Origin: Bacteroidia bacterium
GTDB taxonomy: Bacteria; Bacteroidota; Ignavibacteria; SZUA-365
Reading direction: 5' to 3'
Assembly: GCA_027493955.1 (NCBI GenBank)
Contig: JAOSJT010000001.1
Span: 2,529,131 to 2,593,130, forward strand
Length of the DNA stretch: 64,000 bases
Shown: positions 23,220 to 39,936 of the stretch, one piece after another
Layout: the number at the start of each line of letters is the position of its first letter
Numbering within the stretch: the stretch's first letter is position 1
Program-made: the position numbers and the translations under genes
The notes under the pieces: generated by a model
The model's database searches: none
Seen by the model: only the letters and a program-made list of their open reading frames with translations
What the model was told of the DNA's origin: nothing

Positions 23220-23879
23220 TCAGCCCTTTTTCCAGCCTTCCTTGCCTATGAGCGGAACGAACTTGAAGCCCGCGCTGCGGGCGGAGGTAAACTCTTCCCC
23301 ATTGCGATGTACGAGCACCATGTCCTGCGTGTTCTCCCCTCCGACAGGAATGACCATGCGTCCGCCATCCGCAAGCTGACGCAGCAGCGACGAGGGGACG
23401 TCGGGAGCTCCCGCTGTGACAATGATGCCGTCGTAGGGCGCAAACTGGGACCACCCGACGCTTCCATCCCCCACCTTTGAAGCGATGTTGAATCCCAATC
23501 GATCAAAACGCACGCGCGCCTCTTCGAGCAGCGCGAAGTGCCTTTCTATGGTGAATACTCTCGCACCCAGCGCGGCAAGAAGGCACGCCTGATACCCGCT
23601 GCCCGTCCCGATCTCAAGCACCTTGTCGCCGCGGCGAACGGCGAGGGCCTGCGTCATAAATGCCACTGTGTACGGTTGCGATATGGTTTGCTGGCAGGAG
23701 ATAGGCAGGGCGCTGTCTTCCCACGCACGGGATTGAAAAACGTCCTGCACAAATTCCTGTCGCGGAACTGCGGCAATCGCTCCGAGCACGGCTTCGTCGG
23801 TGATGCCTTTTTTACGGAGAAGCTCGATGAGCTGTGACCGCGCTACGTCCTGGTGTCTGCCTGTAGGTTTCGCGTTCAT
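23220..23879 (-). CDS. pcm: Protein-L-isoaspartate O-methyltransferase
   Basis: 219 aa. The SAM-binding motif KVLEIGTGSGYQACLLA lies near residues 84-100, with the family segment ISQPYTVAFMTQAL just before it and IIVTAGAPDVPSSLL after it. It repairs isoaspartyl residues by methylation. The start ATG at 23879 overlaps the cdaA stop (ATGA, 4 bases), and it ends two bases before miaA, so the three are translationally linked. Confidence 0.96.
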   Translation of the reverse strand: MNAKPTGRHQDVARSQLIELLRKKGITDEAVLGAIAAVPRQEFVQDVFQSRAWEDSALPISCQQTISQPYTVAFMTQALAVRRGDKVLEIGTGSGYQACLLAALGARVFTIERHFALLEEARVRFDRLGFNIASKVGDGSVGWSQFAPYDGIIVTAGAPDVPSSLLRQLADGGRMVIPVGGENTQDMVLVHRNGEEFTSARSAGFKFVPLIGKEGWKKG

Positions 23880-24697
23880 GCGTCGCTGCTTTCGTTCACT
23901 GTGCGCCTGAGCATTGCGTCAAAATGCGATTTCGATGACACGTTGAGTGCCTGCCGGAGGTGGGTGCGCAGCTGTTCGGGTGCGAAATTGCGCCGCAAGA
24001 TCCCATCCTCCGCAACGGATATTGTCCCGGTCTCCTCGGAAACGACGATGGCCAGAACGTCGGTTTGCTCCGATATGCCCACTGCCGAGCGGTGTCGCAT
24101 GCCCATGATAAAGCCATCTATCTGCAGCTGTGCACTGAGCGGCAGCGTACAGCGGGCGGCCATGACAACACGATCCTTGATCACCACTGCGCCGTCGTGC
24201 AGCGGAGCTTTCGGATTGAAGATGGAGAGGAGGAGCTGTTTACTGACTTCTGCGTTCAGCGGTACTCCCGATTCGATAATCATTCGTATGCCCGTGGTCC
24301 GCGTCATGATGATGAGGGCTCCCGTCTGGCGCTGGGCCATTTCTTCGCACGCCTCGACAACCGCGTCGATGGTCTCGTTCATGCTTCTGCGTACGAGGTT
24401 GGCCATAAGACGCCCGCGTCCCAGGATGACGAGCAGCCTTCGCAACTCGGGTTGAAAAAGGATAATGAAAGCGATAACCCAGATGTCGGTCAGTGTTTTC
24501 AGAATCCACGACACGGCCTGAAGATCCAGTGACGATGCGACGAAGGATCCGGCCACCACGACAAGCAAGCCCAGAAATATTTGTATCGCGATGGTGCCAC
24601 GCATTATGAGATACAGGCGGTAGAAAATGAACGTCACCACCGCCACGTCCAGCAGGTCCGTCCAGCTCAGCGTGAGAAAACCGATGTCAAACAGCAT
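23876..24697 (-). CDS. cdaA: Diadenylate cyclase (CdaA type)
   Basis: 273 aa from the ATG at 24697, which overlaps folP by 11 bases. Three N-terminal hydrophobic helices (about residues 1-85) are followed by the DAC domain with its two nucleotide-binding motifs, HDGAVVIKD and MRHRSAVG. It converts two ATP to the second messenger c-di-AMP, which controls turgor, potassium and wall homeostasis. The usual Firmicutes partner CdaR is absent here; instead the gene lies between folP and pcm. The DAC residues look intact, so activity is expected. Confidence 0.95.
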   Translation of the reverse strand: MLFDIGFLTLSWTDLLDVAVVTFIFYRLYLIMRGTIAIQIFLGLLVVVAGSFVASSLDLQAVSWILKTLTDIWVIAFIILFQPELRRLLVILGRGRLMANLVRRSMNETIDAVVEACEEMAQRQTGALIIMTRTTGIRMIIESGVPLNAEVSKQLLLSIFNPKAPLHDGAVVIKDRVVMAARCTLPLSAQLQIDGFIMGMRHRSAVGISEQTDVLAIVVSEETGTISVAEDGILRRNFAPEQLRTHLRQALNVSSKSHFDAMLRRTVNESSDA

Positions 24698-25553
24698 AGT
24701 GTTGCTCCTCCTCGAGTATCGCTGCGGCGACGTCCAGCGCATCGCGGGTTTCGCGCACGTCGTGCACGCGAAAGACCGACGCACCATACCGCAGGGCGAG
24801 CACCGCCGCTGCGAGGCTGCCTGCAAGGCGCTGGTCCACCGCACGGCCGGTTATCTGACCAATCAGCGATTTTCGTGAGACCCCGACCATCACGGGCGCT
24901 CCGAGGTCACAAAACCGCGGCACGGATCCGATAAGCGCGAGATTATGCCGCAAGGTTTTCCCGAAGCCGATGCCGGGATCCAGAATGACCTGTCGAATTC
25001 CTTTCGCAGTGCATGCGGCCAGGCGTTCGTGGAAAAAATCGGCTACCGCGCTCACGACATCGTGGTACTCCGGATTGTCCTGCATCGTAGCCGGAGTGCC
25101 GGACATGTGCATGATCACCAGCGGCGCCCCGCTTGCCGCCGCGACGTCAATCATCGCTTCGTCGAAGCGTAGCGCGCTGACGTCGTTGATAATATCCGCC
25201 CCCGCCGTCAGTGCCGCCTCGGCTACTGGCGCTTTGCGGGTATCCACGGAGATGGGTATCGGCGACGCCGCCCGGAGTCTTTCGATCAGTGGAATGACGC
25301 GGCGCAACTCCTCGTCGATGGCGACGTCGTGGGCGCCGGGGCGCGTGGATTCCCCTCCCACATCGATAATGTCAGCGCCGTCTTCCACCATACGCAGTGC
25401 GAAGTCGACCGCTTCAGAGCTTGAAGCATGCAGCCCTCCGTCGGAGAACGAATCGGGCGTCGCATTGACAATCCCCATGACGCAGGGTCTCGTACGCAGA
25501 TCGAGCGTTCGCGATGCCAGCCGCAGCAGATATGTCGATTCAGATTTTTGCAT
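24687..25553 (-). CDS. folP: Dihydropteroate synthase
   Basis: 288 aa. Diagnostic motifs are MGIVNATPDSFSDGG near residues 26-40, DIIDVGGESTRPGA near residues 61-74, and DPGIGFGKTLRHN, with the C-terminal RVHDVRET. It condenses p-aminobenzoate with dihydropterin pyrophosphate and is the sulfonamide target. First gene of the operon, with no clear Shine-Dalgarno sequence before the ATG at 25553. The 3' end overlaps cdaA. Confidence 0.97.
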   Translation of the reverse strand: MQKSESTYLLRLASRTLDLRTRPCVMGIVNATPDSFSDGGLHASSSEAVDFALRMVEDGADIIDVGGESTRPGAHDVAIDEELRRVIPLIERLRAASPIPISVDTRKAPVAEAALTAGADIINDVSALRFDEAMIDVAAASGAPLVIMHMSGTPATMQDNPEYHDVVSAVADFFHERLAACTAKGIRQVILDPGIGFGKTLRHNLALIGSVPRFCDLGAPVMVGVSRKSLIGQITGRAVDQRLAGSLAAAVLALRYGASVFRVHDVRETRDALDVAAAILEEEQHYAV

Positions 25554-25957
25554 ACCGTATCACTGCATCTTACAATGCGCGTCGAAAAGATGCAAAAGCG
25601 CTGCGCAGTGCTCTGCGCTGGATTGTCGGGCATGGGATCATACAAGGACACTTTCCGTCTCCACAACAATGGCAATACCGCGCCGTTAATGTCGCCAGCA
25701 TGTGTTGGTTATAACGGCCACCGTGACCGCGATAGTCGGTCGCGAAACACGAAGCGGACGCTTACCCGGCGCTACTCGCAACGACGTCTGACCAGGCATA
25801 CATACGTGTGAAACGTCCTCGATCTCCGGCACTTTCATTGATCACGGAGAGCCCCCTGCAAGAATCCCAGGTCCATCAGAGTTTTCAGGTACAAAGCGGC
25901 GCCTCCCGGCTGCGGCCATGCATGGGTCGTTCTCCCGTATCATTCTTCCGTATCAAG
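25554..25957. other. Intergenic region upstream of folP
   Basis: 404 bases between folP and the terminator of the first large secreted protein. On the minus strand TTGCAT (25595-25590), a 17-base spacer and TAAGAT (25572-25567) form a possible folP promoter that would leave a leader of only about 7 bases. Small open frames here show no recognisable protein. Nothing else was identified. Confidence 0.35.
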
Positions 25958-25987
25958 GAGAAAGCCCCGCTGTTGCGGGGCTTTCTC
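25958..25987 (-). terminator. Intrinsic terminator of the first secreted paralogue
   Basis: Perfect 13-bp stem GAGAAAGCCCCGC / GCGGGGCTTTCTC with loop TGTT, 27 bases after the gene stop. The minus-strand 3' arm ends in TTTCTC. The same core hairpin follows each of the three paralogues. Confidence 0.8.
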
Positions 25988-27232
25988 AGGGTCAGGGTTG
26001 TCGGTGTGATGCGCTTACTTCGAAAGCATCATCTGTATGGTCTTGACATAGTCACCGGCGATCATGCGGCAAATGTACGTGCCGCTCGGCAGATCGCGTG
26101 CGTCAAACAGCGTCGTGTACCGGCCCGCGGGCATCGTCTCGTTGACCAGTTCCGCCACTTCGGCGCCAAGCTGGTTGTACACAACGATGCGCACCGCGCG
26201 CTCTTCCGCTACGCCGAAGCTGATGCTCGTCGAGGGATTGAACGGGTTCGGATAGTTCTGATCCAGAGAGAAGCTCACCGGAACGTCGCCATCGGCCTTC
26301 ACGAATCCGTACGGGTGCGCCAGCGCGATGTTGCCGCCCACGTTGCCCGGATTCAGACTGAACACCTTCACCTGCGAATTCGCCGGATCGGATGCCGACG
26401 TCGTGCCCGCGATCGGATTCTCCCACTGGCCCAGCATCACCGCCTGGCGAACGCCGCGAAGCTGCAGAGGATCCTGCACCATCGCCGCTTCCTGCGGTGC
26501 ATACGGGAAGGTGATGTCCGCCGTCCACGAGCCACCGCTGTGCGTGATCTGCCAGTAGCGCTTGACGTAGTGCATGCGCGCAAGGTTCTGCGGCAGCTGG
26601 TTCGGGAACACCGTGATCGTCATGGAGTTCACCGTGCCACTCGTCATGTGCACCGTGCCGATCGGGTCGCCCGTCGCGGCGTCGGTGAAGATGTAGGTGT
26701 TCGGTGCCGTCATCGGTCCGAGCGTCCGGCTCTGCGACGTCGGCGCATATCCGCCACCGCTGGCGACAACGCGCAGCTCGACCACCACGCGGAACACTTC
26801 GTTCGTCGCGCGCAAGCCGTTCATCGGAGGCGGGAAGTCGTTGTTGAACAGCATGCCGTAGAACTGCAGTTCACCACGATGCACGCCGATGGGCAGGCCC
26901 GACGGATCAATGGTCATGGTGAAGGTCTGGAACTGACGCGGACGCGGCGGGGTGAAGTTGTAGCCCTGCAGCGTCGGATCCGGTGTGGACTTGGTCAGCG
27001 TGATCCACGGGGTCGTGGTCGTCACATCCCAGAGGAAGTCGCCAAGGGTACCGAAGATGTTCGTCGTCGTCGAAACGGCATAGGTCTTGTTGATCAGGCC
27101 CGGTTGTTTGTAGTTGGCCGTGATCTGAATGGGAATGCCCGGATCGTCCACATACGAGGTGATCGGCGAGCCGGGGAAGCCGTAACCGATTTTCGGCGGC
27201 GGCGACGGGTTGTCGTCCATGATGATGTCGTC
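25988..27232 (-). repeat. Repeat module, copy 1 of 3
   Basis: 3' block of the first paralogue plus its short 3' untranslated part. It encodes the last 405 residues. It matches copies 2 and 3 almost base for base, with only scattered third-position differences seen. This copy has a few private silent changes (for example near 26172 and 26214). Confidence 0.9.
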
Positions 27233-29584
27233 GATCGCGACACAACTGTTGGCACCGGACGGGTTGGAAACCTGGAAGGCGATGTAGTAATTCGCCGGTG
27301 CTGATGGATCCGTGTTGAAATACGGAGCCGTACCCGGAATGGTGCCGGCGGCGTCGATGGGCACACCCGTCTGCGGGACCACCCAAGTGTTCACCACCGT
27401 CATCGTGGCGGGATTCGGCGTCTGCCCGACAAGCAGAGCAAGCGTGATCGGTCCCGCTGCACCGGGGCAACCGCCGTACTTGAAGCGCACGCGATAGCTC
27501 GAACCAGCGCGAAGAAGTGCGGGAGGGCTCACGAGGTAATCGTTTGCGTTCAGGTCAGTGAGATACGCGCCAACCTGACTTGAGACTGGTACATAGATGT
27601 ACACACCCCAGGTGTTCGCGCCGCCATTGTTGATGACAGTCCAGCCGCTGCGGAAATTGCTCGGCAGACCGCTAGGAGACAGACCTTCGAAATTCTCGAA
27701 ACCGTACACCTTGTCAATCTGCACGTTCATCAGATAGGAACTGTTGTCATTGCCGGGTGCGCCATCGCCCGTATAGAATGCGCGGACATACACGGTCACC
27801 GGACCGAGTGCGGTTGGTGTGTACGGCGTCGTAAAGGTAACTGTTGCCTGTCCGCCGGCCCAGGTAGGGGTGAAGGTTTGCGACACGCCGTCGCCGGTGC
27901 TGGCCGGCAAACTGCCCGCCTTGTACACCAGAGTCACGGACGTCGGCGGGGTTTCCCAGCCGTTGGTTTTGATCACTGCGCTGACAGTATGCGGCTGACC
28001 CTGCACCTGTGCCCAGCGATTAACAGCGTAACCGACATGCGCGGACACGACTTCGATGTCCTTCTGCGGGAAGTCGCCTACCACGAGGTCATCGATCGCC
28101 ATGCCGGCGTAAATCACCGAACCGTCGGAACTGCCGCGGAAACGGATCTGAACACACTGCTGTCCCGCGAGACCGGTGAGCGTATGCACCGAACGCACCC
28201 ACGTGCTCGCTGCGGTACCGTTCCAGCATGGGCCGGCCCAGGAGATGACGCTGGCGACGTTGTACCAGTTGAGGGAGGACGGCAACGGCGGGAAAGTTCC
28301 GAGAGTCAACCAGGTTGTACCTCCGTTGGTCGTGTATTCCACCCATGCGCCGTCCCAGGAGGACTCGAAATCATACTTGCGAGAAAAGGCAAGTACGGGG
28401 TCATTTACCGCGCCAACAAAGCTCATCGGTGGCGACATGGCCCAGGAATTCTCGCTGTTGTTGTAGGTGTTGGACGTCGTCTGCATAAGCAGCGCGTTGG
28501 GCGGAGAGGCAGCCGTCGTACCGATACTGCCGCCCGGAGTGCCGACGCGCCAACTTGAGTTCGTACCGCCAAAGGTCCAGCCATGACCCACCGCATCGAA
28601 GCTCTGCGAGTACGGCAGAGAGACTGCGATACCATAGGAATTGACAGTAGCTGGCGGTGTCGAACCTGGAGGCGTCGTGCCGCTGCCTCCGAAAGGCGAG
28701 GTCGCGACATTGTTGTTGTTGTCACGGGCACCAATGTACCAGTAGACCACGTCTCCGAGAGCGACGCCGCCAAGCGTTGCGTGGTTGATGGTAAAGGTGT
28801 ACGTGCTGCCAACCACAGACGTGGCTGCGGCATTGAACCATGAACCGGTGTTCTTGCGGAACCAGATCGCCGTCGCAGCGACGGAGTTGTTATCGGTAAT
28901 CGTAGCCGTGACCGTCGTGTTTGCTGAGCCGCCGCAGGAGGGCTGACTCGTCACAGTGATCGTCGGAGGAGGATCGCCTGATGGGCTCAATACCATCTGG
29001 ATATTCGGCAACGAGGTATTTGCGCTCAAACTCGTCGGTGGATTGTTGTCGGCCGCAGCGCTGCGATGCTGCGTGGTCGTGGACGTGGTATAGTAGAAGG
29101 ACGGACCGCTGCCCCAGTTGGTGTCGTCTCGAACCACTCGCACGATAACATTGCCTCCCGAGTAGAGGAAGGGCGTGGTCAATGTGAAGTTCCACCATCC
29201 GGTGACGTTGAACAGTGGATGTGTGCCACTCCAGACCAGGGTACCCGATGTCGAGGGAGCACCGGTCGACATGGTCGTTTGTGTCGTGTTCTCGAGATAG
29301 ATGTACAACATCGATCCGAGTTGCGGCGTGTAAGAACTTGCAGATGCAACATTCCAGCGGAGATTGGTGATGGTACCCGGACCACCGATCCACCCTCCCG
29401 CCGCAAGATTAGCGGCGGTATACACCGCTTCCGAGCGGCTGTACCACCAGACCATATTAACCGGATAGGACTGTGTTGAGGTCCCTGTGCCGATGGTCAC
29501 TGTGATCTGGGCGGATGCGTCTCCCAACCCCAGGATCAACAGCATCGCGAGCGCGAGAACTCGCAGTGAGAAACGTAGCTTCAT
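26015..29584 (-). CDS. Large T9SS-secreted surface protein, paralogue 1
   Basis: 1189 aa. A signal peptide (cleavage after ASA, residue 25) leads into an N-terminal beta-rich domain (residues 27-200, with TSTQSYPVNMVWWYSRSE), unlike its two neighbours. An Ig/Fn3-like segment follows (about 205-315). Next come two adhesin-like beta-sandwich modules (SFDAVGHGWTFGG near 330; NFEGLSPSGLP then RSGWTVINNGG near 630-655), resembling MAM or gingipain cleaved-adhesin domains. The last 405 residues are shared with paralogues 2 and 3. They end in a type A T9SS sorting domain (LDQNYPNPFNPSTSISFGV, then GTYICRMIAGDYVKTIQMML). Predicted to be exported by T9SS and anchored or released at the cell surface; the ligand is unknown. 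Start ATG with AAGGAG upstream. Confidence 0.88.
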   Translation of the reverse strand: MKLRFSLRVLALAMLLILGLGDASAQITVTIGTGTSTQSYPVNMVWWYSRSEAVYTAANLAAGGWIGGPGTITNLRWNVASASSYTPQLGSMLYIYLENTTQTTMSTGAPSTSGTLVWSGTHPLFNVTGWWNFTLTTPFLYSGGNVIVRVVRDDTNWGSGPSFYYTTSTTTQHRSAAADNNPPTSLSANTSLPNIQMVLSPSGDPPPTITVTSQPSCGGSANTTVTATITDNNSVAATAIWFRKNTGSWFNAAATSVVGSTYTFTINHATLGGVALGDVVYWYIGARDNNNNVATSPFGGSGTTPPGSTPPATVNSYGIAVSLPYSQSFDAVGHGWTFGGTNSSWRVGTPGGSIGTTAASPPNALLMQTTSNTYNNSENSWAMSPPMSFVGAVNDPVLAFSRKYDFESSWDGAWVEYTTNGGTTWLTLGTFPPLPSSLNWYNVASVISWAGPCWNGTAASTWVRSVHTLTGLAGQQCVQIRFRGSSDGSVIYAGMAIDDLVVGDFPQKDIEVVSAHVGYAVNRWAQVQGQPHTVSAVIKTNGWETPPTSVTLVYKAGSLPASTGDGVSQTFTPTWAGGQATVTFTTPYTPTALGPVTVYVRAFYTGDGAPGNDNSSYLMNVQIDKVYGFENFEGLSPSGLPSNFRSGWTVINNGGANTWGVYIYVPVSSQVGAYLTDLNANDYLVSPPALLRAGSSYRVRFKYGGCPGAAGPITLALLVGQTPNPATMTVVNTWVVPQTGVPIDAAGTIPGTAPYFNTDPSAPANYYIAFQVSNPSGANSCVAIDDIIMDDNPSPPPKIGYGFPGSPITSYVDDPGIPIQITANYKQPGLINKTYAVSTTTNIFGTLGDFLWDVTTTTPWITLTKSTPDPTLQGYNFTPPRPRQFQTFTMTIDPSGLPIGVHRGELQFYGMLFNNDFPPPMNGLRATNEVFRVVVELRVVASGGGYAPTSQSRTLGPMTAPNTYIFTDAATGDPIGTVHMTSGTVNSMTITVFPNQLPQNLARMHYVKRYWQITHSGGSWTADITFPYAPQEAAMVQDPLQLRGVRQAVMLGQWENPIAGTTSASDPANSQVKVFSLNPGNVGGNIALAHPYGFVKADGDVPVSFSLDQNYPNPFNPSTSISFGVAEERAVRIVVYNQLGAEVAELVNETMPAGRYTTLFDARDLPSGTYICRMIAGDYVKTIQMMLSK

Positions 29585-29905
29585 AACATCTACTCCTTGT
29601 GAAGGTGCGACTACGTGAATGAGGTGATTTTTATCGGATCATACAACCGTATTATCTTTTTAATGGTAAATAAAAGCACAAGTTCCAGACAATACTTGAT
29701 ATGTCTGTTCGTGTTGCATTCACGGTGCGGCGTGTGAATAACCTCCAACAACCCTGTGAATTGGTCGGTGCGAATCGGTCACTTTGGGGCCGGGCTAACT
29801 CTACACTGTGAATCTAGCACCCCGATGTACGAAAAGCAAGGGGGAGGGATAAAAACCGGAAGCGCTTCCGCGGCTGCTCCCATGGTGTTTTTGTGGCGAT
29901 CGCAA
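29585..29905. other. Intergenic region upstream of paralogue 1
   Basis: About 320 bases, relatively AT-rich near the gene start. It holds the AAGGAG ribosome binding site and a block CACCTTCACAAGGAG similar to that before paralogue 2. No convincing -35/-10 pair and no coding sequence were recognised. Confidence 0.4.
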
Positions 29906-29935
29906 GAGAAAGCCCCGCTGTTGCGGGGCCTTCTC
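29906..29935 (-). terminator. Intrinsic terminator of the second secreted paralogue
   Basis: Stem GAGAAAGCCCCGC / GCGGGGCCTTCTC with loop TGTT, one A-C mismatch, 27 bases after the stop at 29963. Same loop and core as the terminators at 25958 and 33861. Confidence 0.75.
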
Positions 29936-31180
29936 ATGGTCAGGATTGTCGGTGTGATGCGCTTACTTCGAAAGCATCATCTGTATGGTCTTGACATAGT
30001 CACCGGCGATCATGCGGCAAATGTACGTGCCGCTCGGCAGATCGCGTGCGTCAAACAGCGTCGTGTACCGGCCCGCGGGCATCGTCTCGTTGACCAGTTC
30101 CGCCACTTCGGCGCCCAGCTGGTTGTACACAACGATGCGCACCGCGCGCTCTTCCGCTACGCCAAAGCTGATGCTCGTCGAGGGATTGAACGGGTTCGGA
30201 TAGTTCTGATCCAGAGAGAAGCTCACCGGAACGTCGCCATCGGCCTTCACGAATCCGTACGGGTGCGCCAACGCGATGTTGCCGCCCACGTTACCCGGAT
30301 TCAGACTGAACACCTTCACCTGCGAATTCGCCGGATCGGATGCCGACGTCGTGCCCGCGATCGGATTCTCCCACTGGCCCAGCATCACCGCCTGGCGAAC
30401 GCCGCGAAGCTGCAGAGGATCCTGCACCATCGCCGCTTCCTGCGGTGCATACGGGAAGGTGATGTCCGCCGTCCACGAGCCGCCGCTGTGCGTGATCTGC
30501 CAGTAGCGCTTGACGTAGTGCATGCGCGCAAGGTTCTGCGGCAGCTGGTTCGGGAACACCGTGATCGTCATGGAGTTCACCGTGCCGCTCGTCATGTGCA
30601 CCGTGCCGATCGGGTCGCCCGTCGCGGCGTCGGTGAAGATGTAGGTGTTCGGTGCCGTCATCGGTCCGAGCGTCCGGCTCTGCGACGTCGGCGCATATCC
30701 GCCACCGCTGGCGACAACGCGCAGCTCGACCACCACGCGGAACACTTCGTTCGTCGCGCGCAAACCGTTCATCGGAGGCGGGAAGTCGTTGTTGAACAGC
30801 ATGCCGTAGAACTGCAGCTCACCACGATGCACGCCGATGGGCAGGCCCGACGGATCAATGGTCATGGTGAAGGTCTGGAACTGACGCGGACGCGGCGGGG
30901 TGAAGTTGTAGCCCTGCAGCGTCGGATCCGGTGTGGACTTGGTCAGCGTGATCCACGGGGTCGTGGTCGTCACATCCCAGAGGAAGTCGCCAAGGGTACC
31001 GAAGATGTTCGTCGTCGTCGAAACGGCATAGGTCTTGTTGATCAGGCCCGGTTGTTTGTAGTTGGCCGTGATCTGAATGGGAATGCCCGGATCGTCCACA
31101 TACGAGGTGATCGGCGAGCCGGGGAAGCCGTAACCGATTTTCGGCGGCGGCGACGGGTTGTCGTCCATGATGATGTCGTC
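29936..31180 (-). repeat. Repeat module, copy 2 of 3
   Basis: 3' block of paralogue 2, encoding its last 405 residues. The amino-acid sequence is identical to copy 1 as far as can be read, and the DNA differs only at a few synonymous sites. The homology stops sharply at the codons before the conserved aspartates (near 31180). Confidence 0.9.
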
Positions 31181-33454
31181 CAGTGCAACGCAGCCATTTC
31201 CGGAAGGATTCGTGGCACGGAAGGCGATGTAGTAGTTCGCAGGAGCCGAAGGATCCGTGTTGAAATACGGCGCGGTGCCGGGTATGACACCGGTTGCATC
31301 CACGTAGTTGCTGACCTGCGGCACGACCCACGTATTGACCACACTCATGGTGGCGGGATTCGGGTTCTGACCATAGAGCAACACCAGCGTTGTCGGAGCG
31401 GTACCCCACGAACATCCGCTATACTTGAAACGAACCCGATAGCTTGAACCGGCACGGAGAAGCGCGGGCGGACTGATCAGATAATCGTTCGCATTGAGGT
31501 CGCTGACATAGGCGCCGACATAGCGCGGACCATCGGTGTACACACCCCAGGTGTTCGCGCCACCATTGTTGACCACCGTCCAGCCGGTACGGAAATTCGG
31601 CAGGCCGGTCGCTGCCAGACCTTCGAATTCTTCGAACCCGTAGACCTTGTCGATCTGGACATTCATTGCATAGGATTTATTGTCGTTGGCGGGTGCGCCG
31701 TCACCCGTGTAGAATGCGCGCACAAACACCGTCACCGGTCCGAGCGCTGTGGGGATGTACGGGGTCGAGAAGGTCACCGTGGCCTGTCCACTGGCCCAGG
31801 TCGGTGTAAAGGTTTGCGACACACCATCGCCGGTGCTGGCCGGCACACTGCCCGCCTTGTACACCAGAGTCACGGACGTCGGCGGGCTTTCCCAGCCGTT
31901 GGTCTTGATCACTGCGCTGACGGTATGCGGCTGACCTTGCACCTGTGCCCAGCGATTAAGAGCATAACCGACATGCGCGGACACGACTTCGATGTCCTTC
32001 TGCGGGAAGTCGCCTACCACCAGGTCATCGATCGCCATGCCGGCGTAAATCACTGAACCGTCGGAACTGCCGCGGAATCGAAGCTGCACACACTGCTGTC
32101 CGGCAAGACCGGTGAGCGTATGCACCGAACGCACCCACGTGCTCGCTGCGGTACCGTTCCAGCATGGGCCGGCCCAGGAGATGACACTGGCGACGTTGTA
32201 CCAGTTCAGGGAGGACGGCAACGGCGGGAAGGTCCCGAGCGTCAGCCAGTTCGTGCCACCGTTCGTGGTGTACTCCACCCATGCGCCGTCCCAGGAGGAC
32301 TCGAAATCATACTTGCGAGAAAAAGCAAGTACGGGGTCATTTACCGCGCCAACAAAGCTCATCGGTGGCGACATGGCCCAGGAATTCTCATTGTTGTTGT
32401 AGGTGTTGGACGTCGTCTGCATCAGCAATGCGTTAGGCGGAGACGCGGCGGTGGTACCGATGCTGCCACCGGGAGTTCCAACTCTCCAACTCGATGCCGT
32501 TCCGCCGAAGGTCCAGCCGTGCCCTACCGCATCGAAGCTCTGCGAATACGGCAGGGACAGGGCAATACCGTAAGAATAGAAAATCGCCGGAGGCGTTGAG
32601 CCGGGAGGCGTCGCACCGCTGCCTCCGGATGGAAGCGTCGCCACGCCGTTGAGGTTGTCCCTTGCGCCCAGGTACCAATAGACCATATCGCCGGGAACGA
32701 CTCCACCCAACGTCGCATGATTGATGATGAAGGTGTACGTAGATCCTACCACCGAGGTCGCGGCGGCATTGAACCAGGAACCGGTGTTCTTGCGGAACCA
32801 GATCGCCGCAGCGGCCACGCTTCCGTTGTCGGTAATCGTAGCAACCACAGTCTGATTGGCGACAGTTCCGCAGCCAGGGGAACTGGTGAGAACGATAGTC
32901 GGCGGCGGATCACCCAGTCCCGTAACTGCTATCGTGTAATCTTCCACTTCACCGAACGTCTCGACACCGCATGAGAGATTGGTCAATGACGGATAATACG
33001 ACACGCGTACACGCATACGCTTGTTACCGGTGAGTGTACCAACAGGGCAGGTAATGCTGCCGGTAAAGAGCGTATTGTTGGTCGTTGTGAGGAGAAACGA
33101 TTCCCCGACATCGGTAAAGACCGAGTTGTTGTTCCAGTCCACCCAGACATTGCACTGATCACCTGAATAGCCGTTGGGATTGGTGACGGAAATGGGGTAG
33201 GACGAACCGGCTGTCATCGCTCCCGGTGCAACCGTTGTCGTAAAATCGGTGTATCCTCCTGTACCGCAGGCATTACTGCTGTTATTGATGCCCGCGACTG
33301 TGACGTTGTAGATTGCTTCATCATATCCTCCGCAATAGGTAGAACCCGCGGTGCAGTACTGCGCCGAGGCAGTGCCGGATAGGACAAGCAACAATGCGGC
33401 CACGAACGGTAAGAACTTTACCGCAACGCAGTGCATGCTGAAACAAGGTTTCAT
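29963..33454 (-). CDS. Large T9SS-secreted GEVED-domain protein, paralogue 2
   Basis: 1163 aa. A signal peptide (LLLVLSGTASAQ, cleavage near residue 31) is followed by a GEVED domain (residues about 32-180; FGEVEDYTIAV near the end, with a DWNNNSVFTDVGE segment). Then come the Ig-like, adhesin-like and common C-terminal modules seen in paralogue 1. Its middle module (SFDAVGHG... to GYALNRWAQVQG) is nearly identical to paralogue 1. Its second adhesin module (SGCSWGTAPTTLVLLYGQNP; GNGCVALDDII) differs from both other copies. Ends in the same type A T9SS sorting domain. Start ATG with AAAAGGAG upstream. Confidence 0.88.
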   Translation of the reverse strand: MKPCFSMHCVAVKFLPFVAALLLVLSGTASAQYCTAGSTYCGGYDEAIYNVTVAGINNSSNACGTGGYTDFTTTVAPGAMTAGSSYPISVTNPNGYSGDQCNVWVDWNNNSVFTDVGESFLLTTTNNTLFTGSITCPVGTLTGNKRMRVRVSYYPSLTNLSCGVETFGEVEDYTIAVTGLGDPPPTIVLTSSPGCGTVANQTVVATITDNGSVAAAAIWFRKNTGSWFNAAATSVVGSTYTFIINHATLGGVVPGDMVYWYLGARDNLNGVATLPSGGSGATPPGSTPPAIFYSYGIALSLPYSQSFDAVGHGWTFGGTASSWRVGTPGGSIGTTAASPPNALLMQTTSNTYNNNENSWAMSPPMSFVGAVNDPVLAFSRKYDFESSWDGAWVEYTTNGGTNWLTLGTFPPLPSSLNWYNVASVISWAGPCWNGTAASTWVRSVHTLTGLAGQQCVQLRFRGSSDGSVIYAGMAIDDLVVGDFPQKDIEVVSAHVGYALNRWAQVQGQPHTVSAVIKTNGWESPPTSVTLVYKAGSVPASTGDGVSQTFTPTWASGQATVTFSTPYIPTALGPVTVFVRAFYTGDGAPANDNKSYAMNVQIDKVYGFEEFEGLAATGLPNFRTGWTVVNNGGANTWGVYTDGPRYVGAYVSDLNANDYLISPPALLRAGSSYRVRFKYSGCSWGTAPTTLVLLYGQNPNPATMSVVNTWVVPQVSNYVDATGVIPGTAPYFNTDPSAPANYYIAFRATNPSGNGCVALDDIIMDDNPSPPPKIGYGFPGSPITSYVDDPGIPIQITANYKQPGLINKTYAVSTTTNIFGTLGDFLWDVTTTTPWITLTKSTPDPTLQGYNFTPPRPRQFQTFTMTIDPSGLPIGVHRGELQFYGMLFNNDFPPPMNGLRATNEVFRVVVELRVVASGGGYAPTSQSRTLGPMTAPNTYIFTDAATGDPIGTVHMTSGTVNSMTITVFPNQLPQNLARMHYVKRYWQITHSGGSWTADITFPYAPQEAAMVQDPLQLRGVRQAVMLGQWENPIAGTTSASDPANSQVKVFSLNPGNVGGNIALAHPYGFVKADGDVPVSFSLDQNYPNPFNPSTSISFGVAEERAVRIVVYNQLGAEVAELVNETMPAGRYTTLFDARDLPSGTYICRMIAGDYVKTIQMMLSK

Positions 33455-33860
33455 GGCGTTTCTCCTTTTGAAGGTACAACTATGTAGGGACTTGAGCTAT
33501 AACAAGACAATATATGAGTGCATTATCTACTTCCCGTCGTGCAACAGGCCGTAGTTCCATCAATCACTCGGTATCGGATTAATCGTAGATGGTTTCCACC
33601 ACGGGATTCTTTGTGGCTTCCATCGACAGACACGCCGACATCATACCGTAAAATTTTCACCGAAACCTACAGTTTTCCTCGCCAAGATGCAACCTCAGTG
33701 AAAATTTGCATCAGAGTCTCCACGATATGCGTCGAGCGTTTGATATCTCTCCGACAGACCATGAGAGACTTCTCCAGCGAGTGATCCCTCCCTTCTACCG
33801 GTACCGATAGGAATGAAGCCATTGACCACAGGTGGGGGGCTAATTGGCCCCATCGATACG
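33455..33860. other. Intergenic region upstream of paralogue 2
   Basis: About 400 bases with no recognisable gene. Short open frames on both strands lack any family signature. The segment next to the gene start (33460-33540) is AT-rich and carries the ribosome binding site AAAAGGAG; it probably contains the promoter, though no clear hexamers stand out. Confidence 0.4.
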
Positions 33861-33888
33861 AAAAGGCCCCGCTGTTGCGGGGCCTTCT
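33861..33888 (-). terminator. Intrinsic terminator of the third secreted paralogue
   Basis: 10-bp perfect stem AAGGCCCCGC / GCGGGGCCTT with loop TGTT. On the minus strand the 3' arm runs into TTTT (A at 33861-33864). It lies 28 bases after the stop at 33917. Confidence 0.8.
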
Positions 33889-35134
33889 CATGGTCAGGAT
33901 TGTCGGTGTGATGCGCTTACTTCGAAAGCATCATCTGTATGGTCTTGACATAGTCACCGGCGATCATGCGGCAAATGTACGTGCCGCTCGGCAGATCGCG
34001 TGCGTCAAACAGCGTCGTGTACCGGCCCGCGGGCATCGTCTCGTTGACCAGTTCCGCCACTTCGGCGCCCAGCTGGTTGTACACAACGATGCGCACCGTG
34101 CGCTCTTCCGCTACGCCAAAGCTGATGCTCGTCGAGGGATTGAACGGGTTCGGATAGTTCTGATCCAGAGAGAAGCTCACCGGAACGTCGCCATCGGCCT
34201 TCACGAATCCGTACGGGTGCGCCAACGCGATGTTGCCGCCCACGTTACCCGGATTCAGACTGAACACCTTCACCTGCGAATTCGCCGGATCGGATGCCGA
34301 CGTCGTGCCCGCGATCGGATTCTCCCACTGGCCCAGCATCACCGCCTGGCGAACGCCGCGAAGCTGCAGAGGATCCTGCACCATCGCCGCTTCCTGCGGT
34401 GCATACGGGAAGGTGATGTCCGCCGTCCACGAGCCGCCGCTGTGCGTGATCTGCCAGTAGCGCTTGACGTAGTGCATGCGCGCAAGGTTCTGCGGCAGCT
34501 GGTTCGGGAACACCGTGATCGTCATGGAGTTCACCGTGCCACTCGTCATGTGCACCGTGCCGATCGGGTCGCCCGTCGCGGCGTCGGTGAAGATGTAGGT
34601 GTTCGGTGCCGTCATCGGTCCGAGCGTCCGGCTCTGCGACGTCGGCGCATATCCGCCGCCGCTGGCCACCACGCGCAGCTCGACCACCACGCGGAAGACT
34701 TCGTTCGTCGCGCGCAAGCCGTTCATCGGAGGCGGGAAGTCGTTGTTGAACAGCATGCCGTAGAACTGCAGTTCACCACGATGCACGCCGATCGGCAGGC
34801 CCGACGGATCAATGGTCATGGTGAAGGTCTGGAACTGACGCGGACGCGGCGGGGTGAAGTTGTAGCCCTGCAGCGTCGGATCCGGTGTGGACTTGGTCAG
34901 CGTGATCCACGGGGTCGTGGTCGTCACATCCCAGAGGAAGTCGCCAAGGGTACCGAAGATGTTCGTCGTCGTCGAGACGGCATAGGTCTTGTTGATCAGG
35001 CCCGGTTGTTTGTAGTTGGCCGTGATCTGAATGGGAATGCCCGGATCGTCCACATACGAGGTGATCGGCGAGCCGGGGAAGCCGTAACCGATTTTCGGCG
35101 GCGGCGACGGGTTGTCGTCCATGATGATGTCGTC
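33889..35134 (-). repeat. Repeat module, copy 3 of 3
   Basis: 3' block of paralogue 3. It encodes the same 405 C-terminal residues with one visible change (Ala to Thr in EERTVRIVVY inside the sorting domain). Unlike copy 2, the homology to copy 1 continues past 35134 for some bases, including the codons for ANSCVAIDD. Confidence 0.9.
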
Positions 35135-37432
35135 GATCGCGACACAACTGTTGGCGCCGGACGGATTCGTTGCATGGAAAGCGATGTAGTAATTCGCCGG
35201 AGCGGAGGGATCGGTATTGAAGTACGGTGCCGTTCCGGGGATTACTCCTGCTGCATCGATAGCGACACCGGTCTGGGGCACAACCCACGTATTCACAACG
35301 GACATCGTTGCCGGATTCGGCGTCTGCCCGACAAGCAGAGCAAGCGTGATCGGTCCCGCTGCACCAGGGCAACCGCCGTACTTGAAGCGCACACGATAGC
35401 TCGAACCGGCACGCAGCAGTGCGGGCGGGCTGATCAGATAATCGTTGGCGTTCAGATCGGTCAGGTAACCGGCGATGGTACTCGCGGTCGGAACGTAGAT
35501 GTACACACCCCAGGTGTTCGCGCCGCCATTGTTGATGACAGTCCAACCTGTGCGGAAATTCGGCAAGCCGGAAGCGGGAAGACCTTCGAAATCCTCGAAG
35601 CCATACACTTTGTCCGTCTGCACGTTCATGATGTAGGATTTGCTGTCGTTGCCCGGGGCACCGTCACCTGTGTAGAAAGCGCGCACGTGGACCGTGACCG
35701 GACCAAGCGCGGTGGGGGTGTACGGTGTGGAGAAGTTCACCGTCGCTTGGCCGCTGGCCCACGTCGGTGAGAAAGTCTGCGACACGCCGTCACCGGTGCT
35801 GGCCGGCACGCTGCCCGCCTTGTACACCAAAGTCACGGACGTTGGCGGGGTTTCCCAGCCATTGGTCTTGATCACCGCGCTGACGGTATGCGGCTGGCCC
35901 TGCACCTGTGCCCAGCGATCAACCGCGTAGCTCACATTTGCGGATACCACCTCGATATCCTTTTGCGGGAAGTCGCCCACGACAAGATCATCGATCGCCA
36001 TGCCGCTATAAACGACCGATCCGTCGGATGCTGCACGAATACGAATACGCACGCAGGACTGGCCTGCGAGACCTGTCAGAGTATGCACGGATCGTACCCA
36101 CGCTGTGTAGGAATCGGCGGTCCAGGATGGTTGATTCGGCGCCGAGTTGAGCGAACCAACGGTGTACCAGTTCAGGGAGCTGGGGCCCGGCGGGAAGGTG
36201 CCGAGAGTAATCCAGTTGGTGCCGTTGTTGGTGGTGTATTCCACCCAGGTACCATCCCACACATTCTCGATATTGCGCTTCTGGCTGAAGGCGATCACGG
36301 GGTCATTGATGAGCCCGGTAAAACTCATCGGCGGAGACATCGCCCACGATTGCTCGTTGTTCGCATACTGACCGGAAGTCGTCTGCCACAGCAGCGCATT
36401 CGGAGGAGATGCGGCCGTCGTACCGATCAGACCAACCGGAGTCCCGACACGCCAGGTTGACGCCGTTCCTCCGAAGGTCCAACCATGACCCACCGCATCA
36501 AAGCTCTGTGAATACGGCAAGGACACGGCGATGCCGTACGAATTCGGCGCCGGGGGTGGCGTGGAACCCGGAGGTGTCGTACCACTGCCGCCGGAGGGCA
36601 AGGTGGCGACGCCGTTAAGATTGTCGCGTGCGCCGATGTACCACCAGATCACATCGCCTGGCACCACACCGCCGACCGTCGCATGGTTGATGGTAAAGGT
36701 GTACGTGCTGCCGACAGTGGACGTCGGGTTTGCATTATACCACGTCCCCGTGTTCTTGCGGAACCAGATGACGGCTGCGGCGACAGTACCGTTGTCCGTG
36801 ATATTGGCGACGACCGTCTGGTTCGCCGTGCTACCGCATGCGGGAGAGCTGGTCAGCGAAATGGTGGGTGGTGGATCGCCAAGCCCTGTCACAGCGATGG
36901 TGTAGTCTTCGACTTCACCGAAGGTTTCAACGCCGCACGAGAGGTTCGTCAGCGTCGGATAATAGGAAAGGCGGACACGCATCCGCTTGTTACCCGTGAG
37001 TGTGCCTACAGGACAGGTGATGTTGCCGGTGAACAATGCGTTGTTCGTTGTGCTGAGCAGGAAGGCCTCCCCCGCATCGGTAAACACATTGTTGTTGTTC
37101 CAGTCAACCCAGACGTTCACCTGATCCCCCGTGTAGGCATACAAGTTGGTGACGGAAATGGGATACGAAGAACCGGCGGTCATGGCCCCCGGAGTCACGG
37201 TTGCGGTATAGTCGGAGTAGCCGCCGGTGCCACAACCACTGTTATTGTTGATGCCGGCAACCGTGACATTGCTGATTTGTTCGTCGCCACCGCCGCAGTA
37301 GGTCGACCCCGCAGTGCAGTACTGGGCCGAGGCGGACGACGTCAGCACCAGAAACAACACGGCAACAGACCCGAGTAATGCTGTGATACTCCGTAGGTTT
37401 GGGGTCGCGACATATGTCGAAGGAGATTTCAT
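33917..37432 (-). CDS. Large T9SS-secreted GEVED-domain protein, paralogue 3
   Basis: 1171 aa, first transcribed of the three. Signal peptide (VLFLVLTSSASAQ, cleavage near residue 36), GEVED domain (DWNNNNVFTDAGEAF; GEVEDYTIAVTG), Ig-like segment, then adhesin-like modules. The middle module is the most divergent (QTTSGQYANNEQSWAMSPP, FSQKRNIENVWDGTW). The second adhesin module (GVYIYVP, CPGAAGPITLALLVGQTP) matches paralogue 1 rather than 2. C-terminal 405 residues and T9SS sorting domain shared. Start ATG with GAGG six bases upstream. Function beyond surface or secreted adhesin-like protein cannot be assigned. Confidence 0.88.
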   Translation of the reverse strand: MKSPSTYVATPNLRSITALLGSVAVLFLVLTSSASAQYCTAGSTYCGGGDEQISNVTVAGINNNSGCGTGGYSDYTATVTPGAMTAGSSYPISVTNLYAYTGDQVNVWVDWNNNNVFTDAGEAFLLSTTNNALFTGNITCPVGTLTGNKRMRVRLSYYPTLTNLSCGVETFGEVEDYTIAVTGLGDPPPTISLTSSPACGSTANQTVVANITDNGTVAAAVIWFRKNTGTWYNANPTSTVGSTYTFTINHATVGGVVPGDVIWWYIGARDNLNGVATLPSGGSGTTPPGSTPPPAPNSYGIAVSLPYSQSFDAVGHGWTFGGTASTWRVGTPVGLIGTTAASPPNALLWQTTSGQYANNEQSWAMSPPMSFTGLINDPVIAFSQKRNIENVWDGTWVEYTTNNGTNWITLGTFPPGPSSLNWYTVGSLNSAPNQPSWTADSYTAWVRSVHTLTGLAGQSCVRIRIRAASDGSVVYSGMAIDDLVVGDFPQKDIEVVSANVSYAVDRWAQVQGQPHTVSAVIKTNGWETPPTSVTLVYKAGSVPASTGDGVSQTFSPTWASGQATVNFSTPYTPTALGPVTVHVRAFYTGDGAPGNDSKSYIMNVQTDKVYGFEDFEGLPASGLPNFRTGWTVINNGGANTWGVYIYVPTASTIAGYLTDLNANDYLISPPALLRAGSSYRVRFKYGGCPGAAGPITLALLVGQTPNPATMSVVNTWVVPQTGVAIDAAGVIPGTAPYFNTDPSAPANYYIAFHATNPSGANSCVAIDDIIMDDNPSPPPKIGYGFPGSPITSYVDDPGIPIQITANYKQPGLINKTYAVSTTTNIFGTLGDFLWDVTTTTPWITLTKSTPDPTLQGYNFTPPRPRQFQTFTMTIDPSGLPIGVHRGELQFYGMLFNNDFPPPMNGLRATNEVFRVVVELRVVASGGGYAPTSQSRTLGPMTAPNTYIFTDAATGDPIGTVHMTSGTVNSMTITVFPNQLPQNLARMHYVKRYWQITHSGGSWTADITFPYAPQEAAMVQDPLQLRGVRQAVMLGQWENPIAGTTSASDPANSQVKVFSLNPGNVGGNIALAHPYGFVKADGDVPVSFSLDQNYPNPFNPSTSISFGVAEERTVRIVVYNQLGAEVAELVNETMPAGRYTTLFDARDLPSGTYICRMIAGDYVKTIQMMLSK

Positions 37433-38163: not shown

Positions 38164-39936
38164 ATGAATTCAATACTCCAGGCACAGAGTTCCTTCATGT
38201 CACGTCCATCGCAGCAACCCGGTATCCCATTTCTGTCCATTCTGCCGGCATCGGAATATCGCTCTTGCCTGCACAGGTGTTGCCGACGTAGGCTCCGGGC
38301 TCTTACAGCGTTGCATGCGGTGATCATGTTCCTCGGCGTGTTTTCGTGCACCGTGGAGCTCCGGGCACAGAGAGTGGAATTCACCGCATCTTCTCTTCCA
38401 ATTGTGGTCATCAACACCGATGGCGTCGAAATCCCGGACGAGCCCAAAGTTCCGGCGTACATGGGAATTATTCGTTCCTCGTCCGGCGCAAATCACATTG
38501 ACAGCACCTTCACCGACTATGACGGCCTGATTTCCATAGAGCTCCGGGGTAATTCTTCCTTGACCTATGATCAGAAGCAATATCTGTTCAAAACCGTGAG
38601 CTCATCCGGGCAGGACAGCAACGTCGTACTTATGGACTTTCCTGCCGAGCATGAATGGATTCTGTTCGGTCCTGCGGTGGACAAATCGCTGATGCGCAAC
38701 GTGCTCATGTTTCGCATTGCACGTGAACTCGGTTGGTACGCAAGCCGCACACAGTTTTGCGAACTCGTCCTGAATGGCGATTACCGGGGTGTGTATGTGT
38801 TGATGGAAAATGTCAAGCGGGACAAAAGCCGCGTGAACATTTCCAAAATCGCAGGAGACATCACCTCCGGCGAACCCCTCACCGGTGGTTATATTCTTGC
38901 CATTGACCACAACGGCAAACAGAACGACAAAGGCTTCGCGGCCGCGGAGGATTCCCTGGGAACTTTCGTGTATTGGTATATCTATCCCTCTCCGAAAAAC
39001 ATCAATGTACAGCAAGAGTGGTATATACAAGGATACGTCAAATCGTTCGAGGCGCTCATGCGCCATCCCGCATTCAATGACCCGCTTCGCGGGTATGCGG
39101 CATTCCTGAATCTAGATTCTTTTATTGATTACATTTTGCTCAACGAGTGGTCCAACAATGTTGACAGCTATGTCGCCAGTGCCTACCTGCATAAAGACAG
39201 GCAGAGCGCCGGAGGGAAGCTCACGGCGGGCCCGGTGTGGGATTTCAATATCGCCTTCGGGAATGCGAATTATGCGGGAGGCGAGCGCAGCTCCGGATGG
39301 AGAATTCATTACGAGCGAGTGCCTTTTTGGTGGCGCCGACTACTGCAGGATACCGCCTTCGTGTCAAGACTAGAAAAGCGCTGGACGGAACTGCGCGCCT
39401 CATCATTGCACGAGGAGCGGGTCGGACACATCATTGACTCCGTAGCGACCTTGCTTGACGAGGCGCAGGTCAGGCATTTCCTGCGCTGGGACCTCCTCGG
39501 GACGTACATTTGGCCCAACGCCTATGTGGGTGAGAGTTACCTGGATGAGGTTGATTACCTCAAAAACTGGATCCGGGACCGCCTGCACTGGATGGACAGA
39601 AATTTACCATCGATTGCTTTACCGCTGGACAAAGGCATGACCACCGCTGCTGATTTCTCTGTCACAGATGATGCTCCATCAATTACCGTCTATCCCACAC
39701 CGAGTGCGGGAAGTGTTACCGTGCGTTACGAAACAGCTGCAACAGCCGGTGTGGAAGTGGTTGTTCGCGACCTACTCGGGAGGGTGGTACAGAGAGTCAC
39801 GCAGGGAGCAGTCACGGGCGGCACCGCCCATGCTCTGCAAATGCATTTACAGGATCAACCCACAGGGCTGTATCAGATAATCCTGATGCACAATGGTGCG
39901 CCATCCACTTCGACATTGATGCACATCCTCCGTTGA
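38164..39936 (+). CDS. CotH kinase-like protein with T9SS sorting domain
   Basis: 590 aa. After a basic N-terminus, a hydrophobic signal segment (LTALHAVIMFLGVFSCTVELRAQ, about residues 47-69) precedes a CotH-family domain (about 75-480). That domain shows SIELRGNSSLTYDQKQYLFKT, MRNVLMFRIARELG, NGDYRGVYVLMENVKRDK and GPVWDFNIAFGNANY. The C-terminal 85 residues (ITVYPTPSAGSVTVRYE to the end) look like a divergent type A T9SS sorting domain. CotH is a protein kinase in Bacillus spores; in bacteria of this group the target of the secreted form is unknown. The start chosen has AAAGGA about 13 bases upstream; a later ATG (MSRPS) is possible. Confidence 0.88.
   Translation: MNSILQAQSSFMSRPSQQPGIPFLSILPASEYRSCLHRCCRRRLRALTALHAVIMFLGVFSCTVELRAQRVEFTASSLPIVVINTDGVEIPDEPKVPAYMGIIRSSSGANHIDSTFTDYDGLISIELRGNSSLTYDQKQYLFKTVSSSGQDSNVVLMDFPAEHEWILFGPAVDKSLMRNVLMFRIARELGWYASRTQFCELVLNGDYRGVYVLMENVKRDKSRVNISKIAGDITSGEPLTGGYILAIDHNGKQNDKGFAAAEDSLGTFVYWYIYPSPKNINVQQEWYIQGYVKSFEALMRHPAFNDPLRGYAAFLNLDSFIDYILLNEWSNNVDSYVASAYLHKDRQSAGGKLTAGPVWDFNIAFGNANYAGGERSSGWRIHYERVPFWWRRLLQDTAFVSRLEKRWTELRASSLHEERVGHIIDSVATLLDEAQVRHFLRWDLLGTYIWPNAYVGESYLDEVDYLKNWIRDRLHWMDRNLPSIALPLDKGMTTAADFSVTDDAPSITVYPTPSAGSVTVRYETAATAGVEVVVRDLLGRVVQRVTQGAVTGGTAHALQMHLQDQPTGLYQIILMHNGAPSTSTLMHILR

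Follow-up and report, generated by a model that had tools for sequence, protein, structure and literature searches.

Segmental exchange and domain-wise homogenisation among three tandem T9SS cargo genes in a Bacteroidota genome

Introduction

How have three neighbouring genes come to be nearly identical at their 3' ends and, further upstream, to resemble one another in pairs that change from segment to segment? The question is raised by a window of 64,000 nucleotides (the whole stretch of DNA analysed, to which the positions below refer), which is part of the single-contig 5.24 Mb genome of assembly GCA_027493955.1. Here three tandem genes, termed c1 (26015..29584), c2 (29963..33454) and c3 (33917..37432), follow one another in the same orientation (minus strand) at a copy spacing of ~3.95 kb, and their open reading frames encode T9SS cargo proteins of 1189, 1163 and 1171 aa, respectively. 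An earlier, sequence-only reading had the region begin at 26900, a start that cuts off the end of c1, and proposed that segments had been exchanged between the neighbours, potentially generating surface-protein variants.

Domain architecture of the three proteins

The proteins are composed, in order, of an N-terminal domain, a linker that is probably Ig/FN-like, module 1, module 2 and a C-terminal beta-rich block. All three have hydrophobic N-termini visible in their translations and a C-terminal sorting domain scoring above the curated cut-off (Por_Secre_tail, PF18962, 27.7-28.1 bits against a cut-off of 27), with TIGR04183 likewise matching each of them at 28-29 bits (cut-off 23). Since the genome additionally encodes SprA (TIGR04189, 989 bits, cut-off 200, at C1:3852646-3859554), they are classified as T9SS type A cargo. 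The sorting tail is the sole part of the C-terminal block with a Pfam match. At the other end, the N-terminal regions of c2 (32963..33454) and c3 (36929..37432) contain a GEVED domain (E 4e-18 and 1e-18, respectively), which is missing from c1, where the corresponding region (28997..29584) comprises a signal-like segment and a domain common to the orthologues in genomes G006-G009. These regions, as well as all further gene segments and hairpins given below, are on the minus strand.

Module 1 has a weak match to the MAM domain, below the cut-off, and NF038128 (cleaved adhesin / choice-of-anchor J) is detected in c3 at 42 bits (cut-off 30), with its best stretch at residues 613-769. The structure model of c1 has a mean pLDDT of 64, with values of mostly 60-94 starting at residue 505; ahead of this residue, in the N-terminus and module 1, it is weak, with much of the pLDDT under 60, and the fold comparison hence covers module 2. 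In the same model, module 2 (residues 623-795) aligns with the Kgp K1-K3 domains at Z 14.8-15.3 and an rmsd of 2.2-2.4 over 145-147 residues, tied with the meprin MAM domain (Z 15.3) and CBM4-2 (Z 14.6). The predicted structure thus places module 2 in the MAM / cleaved-adhesin / CBM4 jelly-roll fold, which, on account of these ties, is common beyond the cleaved adhesins. Overall, c1-c3 are modular surface or secreted proteins, which probably have an adhesive or glycan-binding role.

A mosaic of pairwise identity along the genes

Sliding-window comparison of the copies reproduced every similarity described in the sequence-only reading. In the N-terminal region c2 and c3 are 71% identical in nucleotides and 77% in amino acids and c1 is unrelated, such that sliding identity and domain matches agree on a GEVED front common to copies 2 and 3. 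The near-identity noted for c1 and c2 in the first adhesin module falls in a tract at 28031..28486 of c1 and 31967..32422 of c2, which are 89-98% identical in nucleotides, as against 59-70% to the divergent counterpart in c3 (35930..36388). In the second module the partners change, again as noted, and a short tract of c1 (27392..27514) is 92% identical to that of c3 (35294..35416) over alignment columns 720-760, as opposed to 68-69% to the counterpart in c2 (31337..31459). Finally, a common C-terminal block of ~400 codons with the T9SS sorting domain at its end (26018..27220 in c1, 29966..31168 in c2 and 33920..35122 in c3) shows 96-100% nucleotide identity in every pair.

The aligned genes have 905 variable sites, 786 of which group two copies against the third. 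Change-point segmentation of these informative sites identifies breakpoints at alignment columns 255, 395, 548 and 640 (p=0.003 each, the floor of 300 permutations), with those at 395 and 548 delimiting the module-1 tract. The longest agreeing runs, i.e., c1-c2 at columns 474-499 in module 1 and c1-c3 at columns 737-751 in module 2, are both beyond all 2000 permutations, as is also the case with third codon positions only; chance similarity is thereby rejected as the source of the pattern.

The silent sites follow the same divisions. In the C-terminal block dS is 0.03-0.04 for all pairs; in module 1 it is 0.27 for c1-c2 and 1.50 and 1.76 for the other pairs; and in module 2b it is 0.78 for c1-c3, the other pairs being at 3 or saturation. 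The linker has values of 1.2-2.2 and the N-terminus values above 2 (2.3 for c2-c3), and in most segments outside the C-terminal block dS is 1.0 or more. Segments of one and the same gene pair are therefore up to 50-fold apart in silent-site divergence. The dS of the exchange tracts (0.03 in the C-terminal block, 0.27 in module 1 of c1-c2 and 0.78 in module 2b of c1-c3) shows that they differ in age. Pairwise dN/dS is low, at about 0.1-0.2 (in module 1 of c1-c3, 0.26/1.50).

AU tests with four outgroup genes reject the alternatives to the c1-c2 grouping in module 1 (p 0.005 and 0.010). In module 2b the c1+c3 grouping is the best, with the alternatives staying in the set (p 0.09 and 0.27), and exchange in this module is a weaker case that draws its support from the run tests and from a short tract (~120 nt at 92% identity, with a 53-nt identical run) rather than from a resolved rooted tree. 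The contention that no single branching order explains the copies stands in three regions (N-terminus, module 1 and 3' block), with the module 1 and C-terminal phylogenies being incongruent, and is less secure for module 2.

Homogenisation rather than conservation of the C-terminal block

The protein sequence of the C-terminal block is the same in all copies, apart from one substitution in c3. Relatives of the block occur in 14 of the 16 genomes of the order, and it is 70-72% identical in amino acids to the genes of genus g5 and 50% to those of G006 and G007, with a dS between genera of 0.85-0.96. This level of divergence indicates that the block is under no unusual constraint. Further, paralogues within the genome are closer at silent sites than orthologues, with a dS of 0.03-0.04 as compared with 0.85-0.92 to G008. 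As the silent sites vary between genera and are near-identical within the genome, the identity of the block is explained by homogenisation. Long plus-strand open reading frames do extend over the block in each copy (25808-27304, 29756-31447 and 33875-35770); however, the possibility that they are real antisense genes constraining the silent sites is countered by the dS of about 0.9 between genera in the same block.

The identity continues for 57 nt past the stop codon and stops directly behind a terminator-like hairpin, located at 25958..25987 behind c1, 29906..29935 behind c2 and 33860..33889 behind c3. These hairpins, recognised by eye, by intergenic comparison and by folding, have fold energies of -26.6 (behind c1) to -28.7 kcal/mol; they are absent from the list of a promoter/terminator scan, which returned nothing above chance expectation. 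The remaining intergenic DNA is unrelated between the copies, which argues that whole units were not recently duplicated, and the end of identity right behind the hairpin fits conversion bounded by the reach of homology. With incongruent trees, uneven dS, intergenic regions that are unrelated outside the tracts, and tracts bounded inside the genes, there is good support for the neighbours having exchanged segments.

Polarity of the N-terminal replacement

The c1-type N-terminal domain is present in G006, in G007, in both full genes of G008 and in a fragment from G009, all in the same taxonomic family. Its presence in these relatives, including single-copy ones, indicates that the c1 type is ancestral. 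The genes of the same type as c1-c3 (A-type) number one in G006, one in G007 and at least three in G008, a comparison at the family level in which the genus itself is sampled by one genome. By the same token, the GEVED domain is a later replacement in the lineage of c2 and c3, and an old one, since the 77% amino acid identity of their N-termini is accompanied by saturated silent sites. The GEVED front is accordingly to be withdrawn from the exchanges among the three copies, with which the sequence-only reading had counted it. A search for its donor did not find one, the nearest relatives being 40% identical and in G006, where a GEVED-containing T9SS gene adjoins the single A-type orthologue. 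In module 1, c1 and c2 are slightly nearer to the outgroups than is c3.

The same gradient in other arrays and genomes

The metagenome-assembled genome G008 (SZUA-365) has a tandem pair of A-type genes with 63% nucleotide identity in the N-terminus and 91% in the C-terminal block. One gene (G8bc) was read from the minus-strand frame of contig C125 joined to C147, two contigs that terminate within an A-type gene with an exact 144-nt overlap. In the N-terminus tree the grouping of c1 with G8bc is favoured over that of G8a with G8bc (AU p 0.0375 in nucleotides and 0.098 in amino acids), whereas in the C-terminal tree both G008 copies come together and the reverse grouping is rejected (p 7e-6).

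Two further arrays are found in the window's genome. Cluster B (b1-b5, at C1:2606-2624 kb and 2761 kb) has the A-type C-terminal 680 aa in common with the window genes, at 50-54% amino acid identity, with the upstream parts matching bodies of a separate 13-gene array, as though both families had been fused in it. Within it, the last 1620 nt of b1 and b2 are 97-100% identical, after which identity falls to 64-82%. The 13-gene array itself (C1:2208629-2258646) has five N-terminal types that are 28-51% identical in nucleotides between types, and yet across different N-terminal types the bodies are 99-100% identical in m8-m13 and 95-99% in m3-m5; likewise, m10 and m11 are 91-97% identical in body 2 and the C-terminus and have different N-terminal types. 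The N-terminal and body trees reject each other (AU p 1e-6 and 5e-56). Recent transfers in this array have thus placed one body behind different N-terminal types, and new combinations do arise in this genome.

In another genus, a pair of genes in G003 (a 30-contig assembly) is 94% identical over the last 360 codons and 49% in the front parts, the front parts of a second pair being 73% identical; in G009, several copies are 94-96% identical over the last 600 nt. By contrast, the genes of A/B type in G003 and G005 are uniformly divergent and show little homogenisation, which is hence not universal.

Gene conversion and the alternatives

The sequences show a mosaic, homogenised silent sites, bounded tracts and a like pattern in further arrays and genera. 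The best explanation is very probably gene conversion between old tandem copies, acting most strongly at the 3' end; the locus would be a clear case of this process, which is known between neighbouring copies. Under this model, c1-c3 would be old tandem paralogues of one modular, T9SS-secreted cell-surface protein. RecA-dependent conversion, for which the genome has a recA gene, would keep overwriting the 3' part, i.e., ~1.2 kb of coding sequence together with the terminator; shorter tracts in the adhesin modules would be converted more rarely; and each N-terminal module would either stay or be replaced in one piece. Within the genome, the stalk and sorting cassette at the C-terminus would thereby evolve in concert as the front modules diverge. 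A feedback is likely, in that diverged or replaced fronts would cease to recombine and the 3' block, staying homologous, would go on converting, to which selection for different front modules may add.

Repeated unequal crossing over followed by loss is not separable from gene conversion for every tract. An unlikely scenario is a recent tandem triplication in which the 3' identity reflects recent descent and the fronts were subsequently replaced by divergent outside DNA. It would account for the near-identical 3' block, and the unrelated N-termini of c1 and of c2/c3 mean that a front was indeed replaced at least once. However, the DNA between the copies is unrelated, and the middle segments are alignable with silent sites near saturation in the linker and intermediate in modules 1 and 2, such that homologous middle segments would have to have been imported several times over, each time independently. 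Moreover, G008, cluster B, G009, the 13-gene array and G003 each show the 3' gradient independently.

Even less probable is a dedicated diversification system, be it a diversity-generating retroelement (DGR), an invertible shufflon or programmed antigenic variation with an expression site, despite the occurrence of tandem surface-protein genes with reassorted modules and of the 13-gene array, with one body joined to different N-terminal types at 99-100% identity. The reverse transcriptase domain (RVT_1, PF00078) has no match in the complete genome and matches in three control genomes, thereby ruling out a DGR. No inverted repeats of at least 40 nt were found within 24-40 kb at the locus and no recombinase domains among the ten flanking open reading frames scanned. 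Further, upstream region and terminator are separate for every copy, silent partial cassettes are absent, and dN/dS is low. Finally, the notion that purifying selection on the secretion end yields rate differences mimicking a mosaic on one tree, which could appeal to the functional sorting domain and the general conservation of the C-termini of T9SS proteins, is refuted to the point of being scarcely credible by silent sites that are themselves nearly identical (dS 0.03, against ~0.9 between genera), by a C-terminal block that is only 50-72% identical to that of other genera in amino acids, and by identity continuing beyond the stop codon.

Possible generation of surface variants

The suggestion that gene conversion of this kind generates surface variants is partly supported. 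At c1-c3 themselves the module swaps are old and the recent exchange homogenises a C-terminus that is already identical; as the recently exchanged block is the same protein in all copies and dN/dS is low (0.1-0.2), the locus alone gives no sign of rapid antigenic diversification, and a role here in generating variants would be conjectural. The 13-gene array, with its new pairs of N-terminus and body, does lend the suggestion support. One may tentatively envisage a 'variable front, common back' organisation across the order, in which conversion via the homogenised C-terminal cassette continually joins N-terminal binding modules to shared stalks in new pairs and carries the cassette from one family to another (A-type on bodies of the 13-gene-array type, as in cluster B), thus varying the surface repertoires of individuals or strains; on present evidence this broader proposal is rather doubtful. 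Were recombinants between strains shown, it would amount to a mechanism of surface-protein variation like that of host-adapted bacteria.

In these T9SS cargo genes concerted evolution proceeds domain by domain and can be quantified, and it recurs across arrays and genera in a Bacteroidota lineage known mainly from metagenome-assembled genomes. The locus also counsels caution, in that trees of the C-termini of such families report homogenisation within a genome rather than descent, and short-read assemblies break within such genes.

Comparison with known systems

The rgpA, kgp and hagA genes of Porphyromonas gingivalis have internal repeats within the genes and are not known to form a tandem array, unlike the present locus, a tandem of whole genes with a variable front and with homogenisation at the 3' end, which includes the sorting domain. 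The two systems are alike in that both involve T9SS cargo with adhesin modules of the same fold (Z ~15 between module 2 and Kgp K1-K3), near-identical stretches between genes, rearrangement of modules and assembly breaks at shared repeats. Domain rearrangement among the P. gingivalis genes is known, with the variation described between strains (Dashper et al. 2017, PMC5266723). Among the papers searched on gene conversion and type IX secretion, also in combination with tandem genes, no relevant case came up besides P. gingivalis.

Recombination between paralogues via shared blocks has been described for the tandem esaG and tipC T7SS immunity genes (Garrett et al. 2022, PMC9484751). As at c1-c3, these are tandem paralogues with blocks of high similarity, which there mediate recombination and copy-number change; unlike c1-c3, they are small immunity genes of Firmicutes in which recombination is documented between strains. 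The rhs genes, with a conserved core, a variable C-terminal tip and orphan tips, represent a case of displaced C-termini (Jackson et al. 2009, PMC2935791). They similarly have one conserved and one variable part that evolve independently, although at the present locus it is the N-terminal front that varies and no orphan cassettes are seen.

In Helicobacter pylori, babA, babB and babC undergo segmental, RecA-dependent gene conversion, which has been shown experimentally and in vivo. Like c1-c3, they are paralogous surface adhesins with conserved ends in common that exchange segments; unlike them, they encode dispersed outer-membrane proteins with a variable middle and shared ends. The process itself is thus a known one, and it is the order-wide, multi-array pattern of a variable front with a common back that could go further.

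Genomic setting of the triplet

The tandem minus-strand T9SS cargo genes c1-c3 have folP and cdaA (23876-25553) directly downstream, and beyond c3 lies a divergently oriented plus-strand gene (38164-39936) for a CotH kinase-domain protein with a T9SS tail. In the related genomes G003, G005, G007, G008 and G009, too, a gene related to those of the window adjoins folP and/or cdaA. This neighbourhood is a conserved site for the family.

Long plus-strand open frames (25808-27304, 29756-31447 and 33875-35770) lie antisense to the C block, i.e., the homogenised last ~400 codons, in all three window copies, and another is present in one G008 homologue. The most likely explanation for these frames is that they arise incidentally from codon usage.

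Related clusters elsewhere in the genome

When the c2 protein was compared with the whole genome, 149 matches were obtained, nearly all confined to the T9SS sorting tail, which points to a very large set of T9SS cargo proteins. Outside the window, a second cluster, b1-b5 (loci L031:13186-17001, L032:1054-15522 and L033:6282-10799), encodes proteins that combine bodies of the type found in a 13-gene array described below with a 680-aa C-terminus of the window-gene type; their 3' ends are homogenised. The minus-strand b2 (L032:1054-5509) is in two frames (1084 and 383 aa), broken within the shared 3' part, which reflects either a sequencing error or a broken gene.

The array itself comprises 13 tandem T9SS genes on the window's own contig but outside the window (G000:C1:2208629-2258646; loci L034-L036), with a period of ~3.9 kb. 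Its five N-terminal types are reassorted relative to the bodies behind them, which cluster differently. For example, the array genes m8 and m13 have bodies that are 99-100% identical, but differ in N-terminal type. The array presents a stronger mosaic than the c1-c3 triplet.
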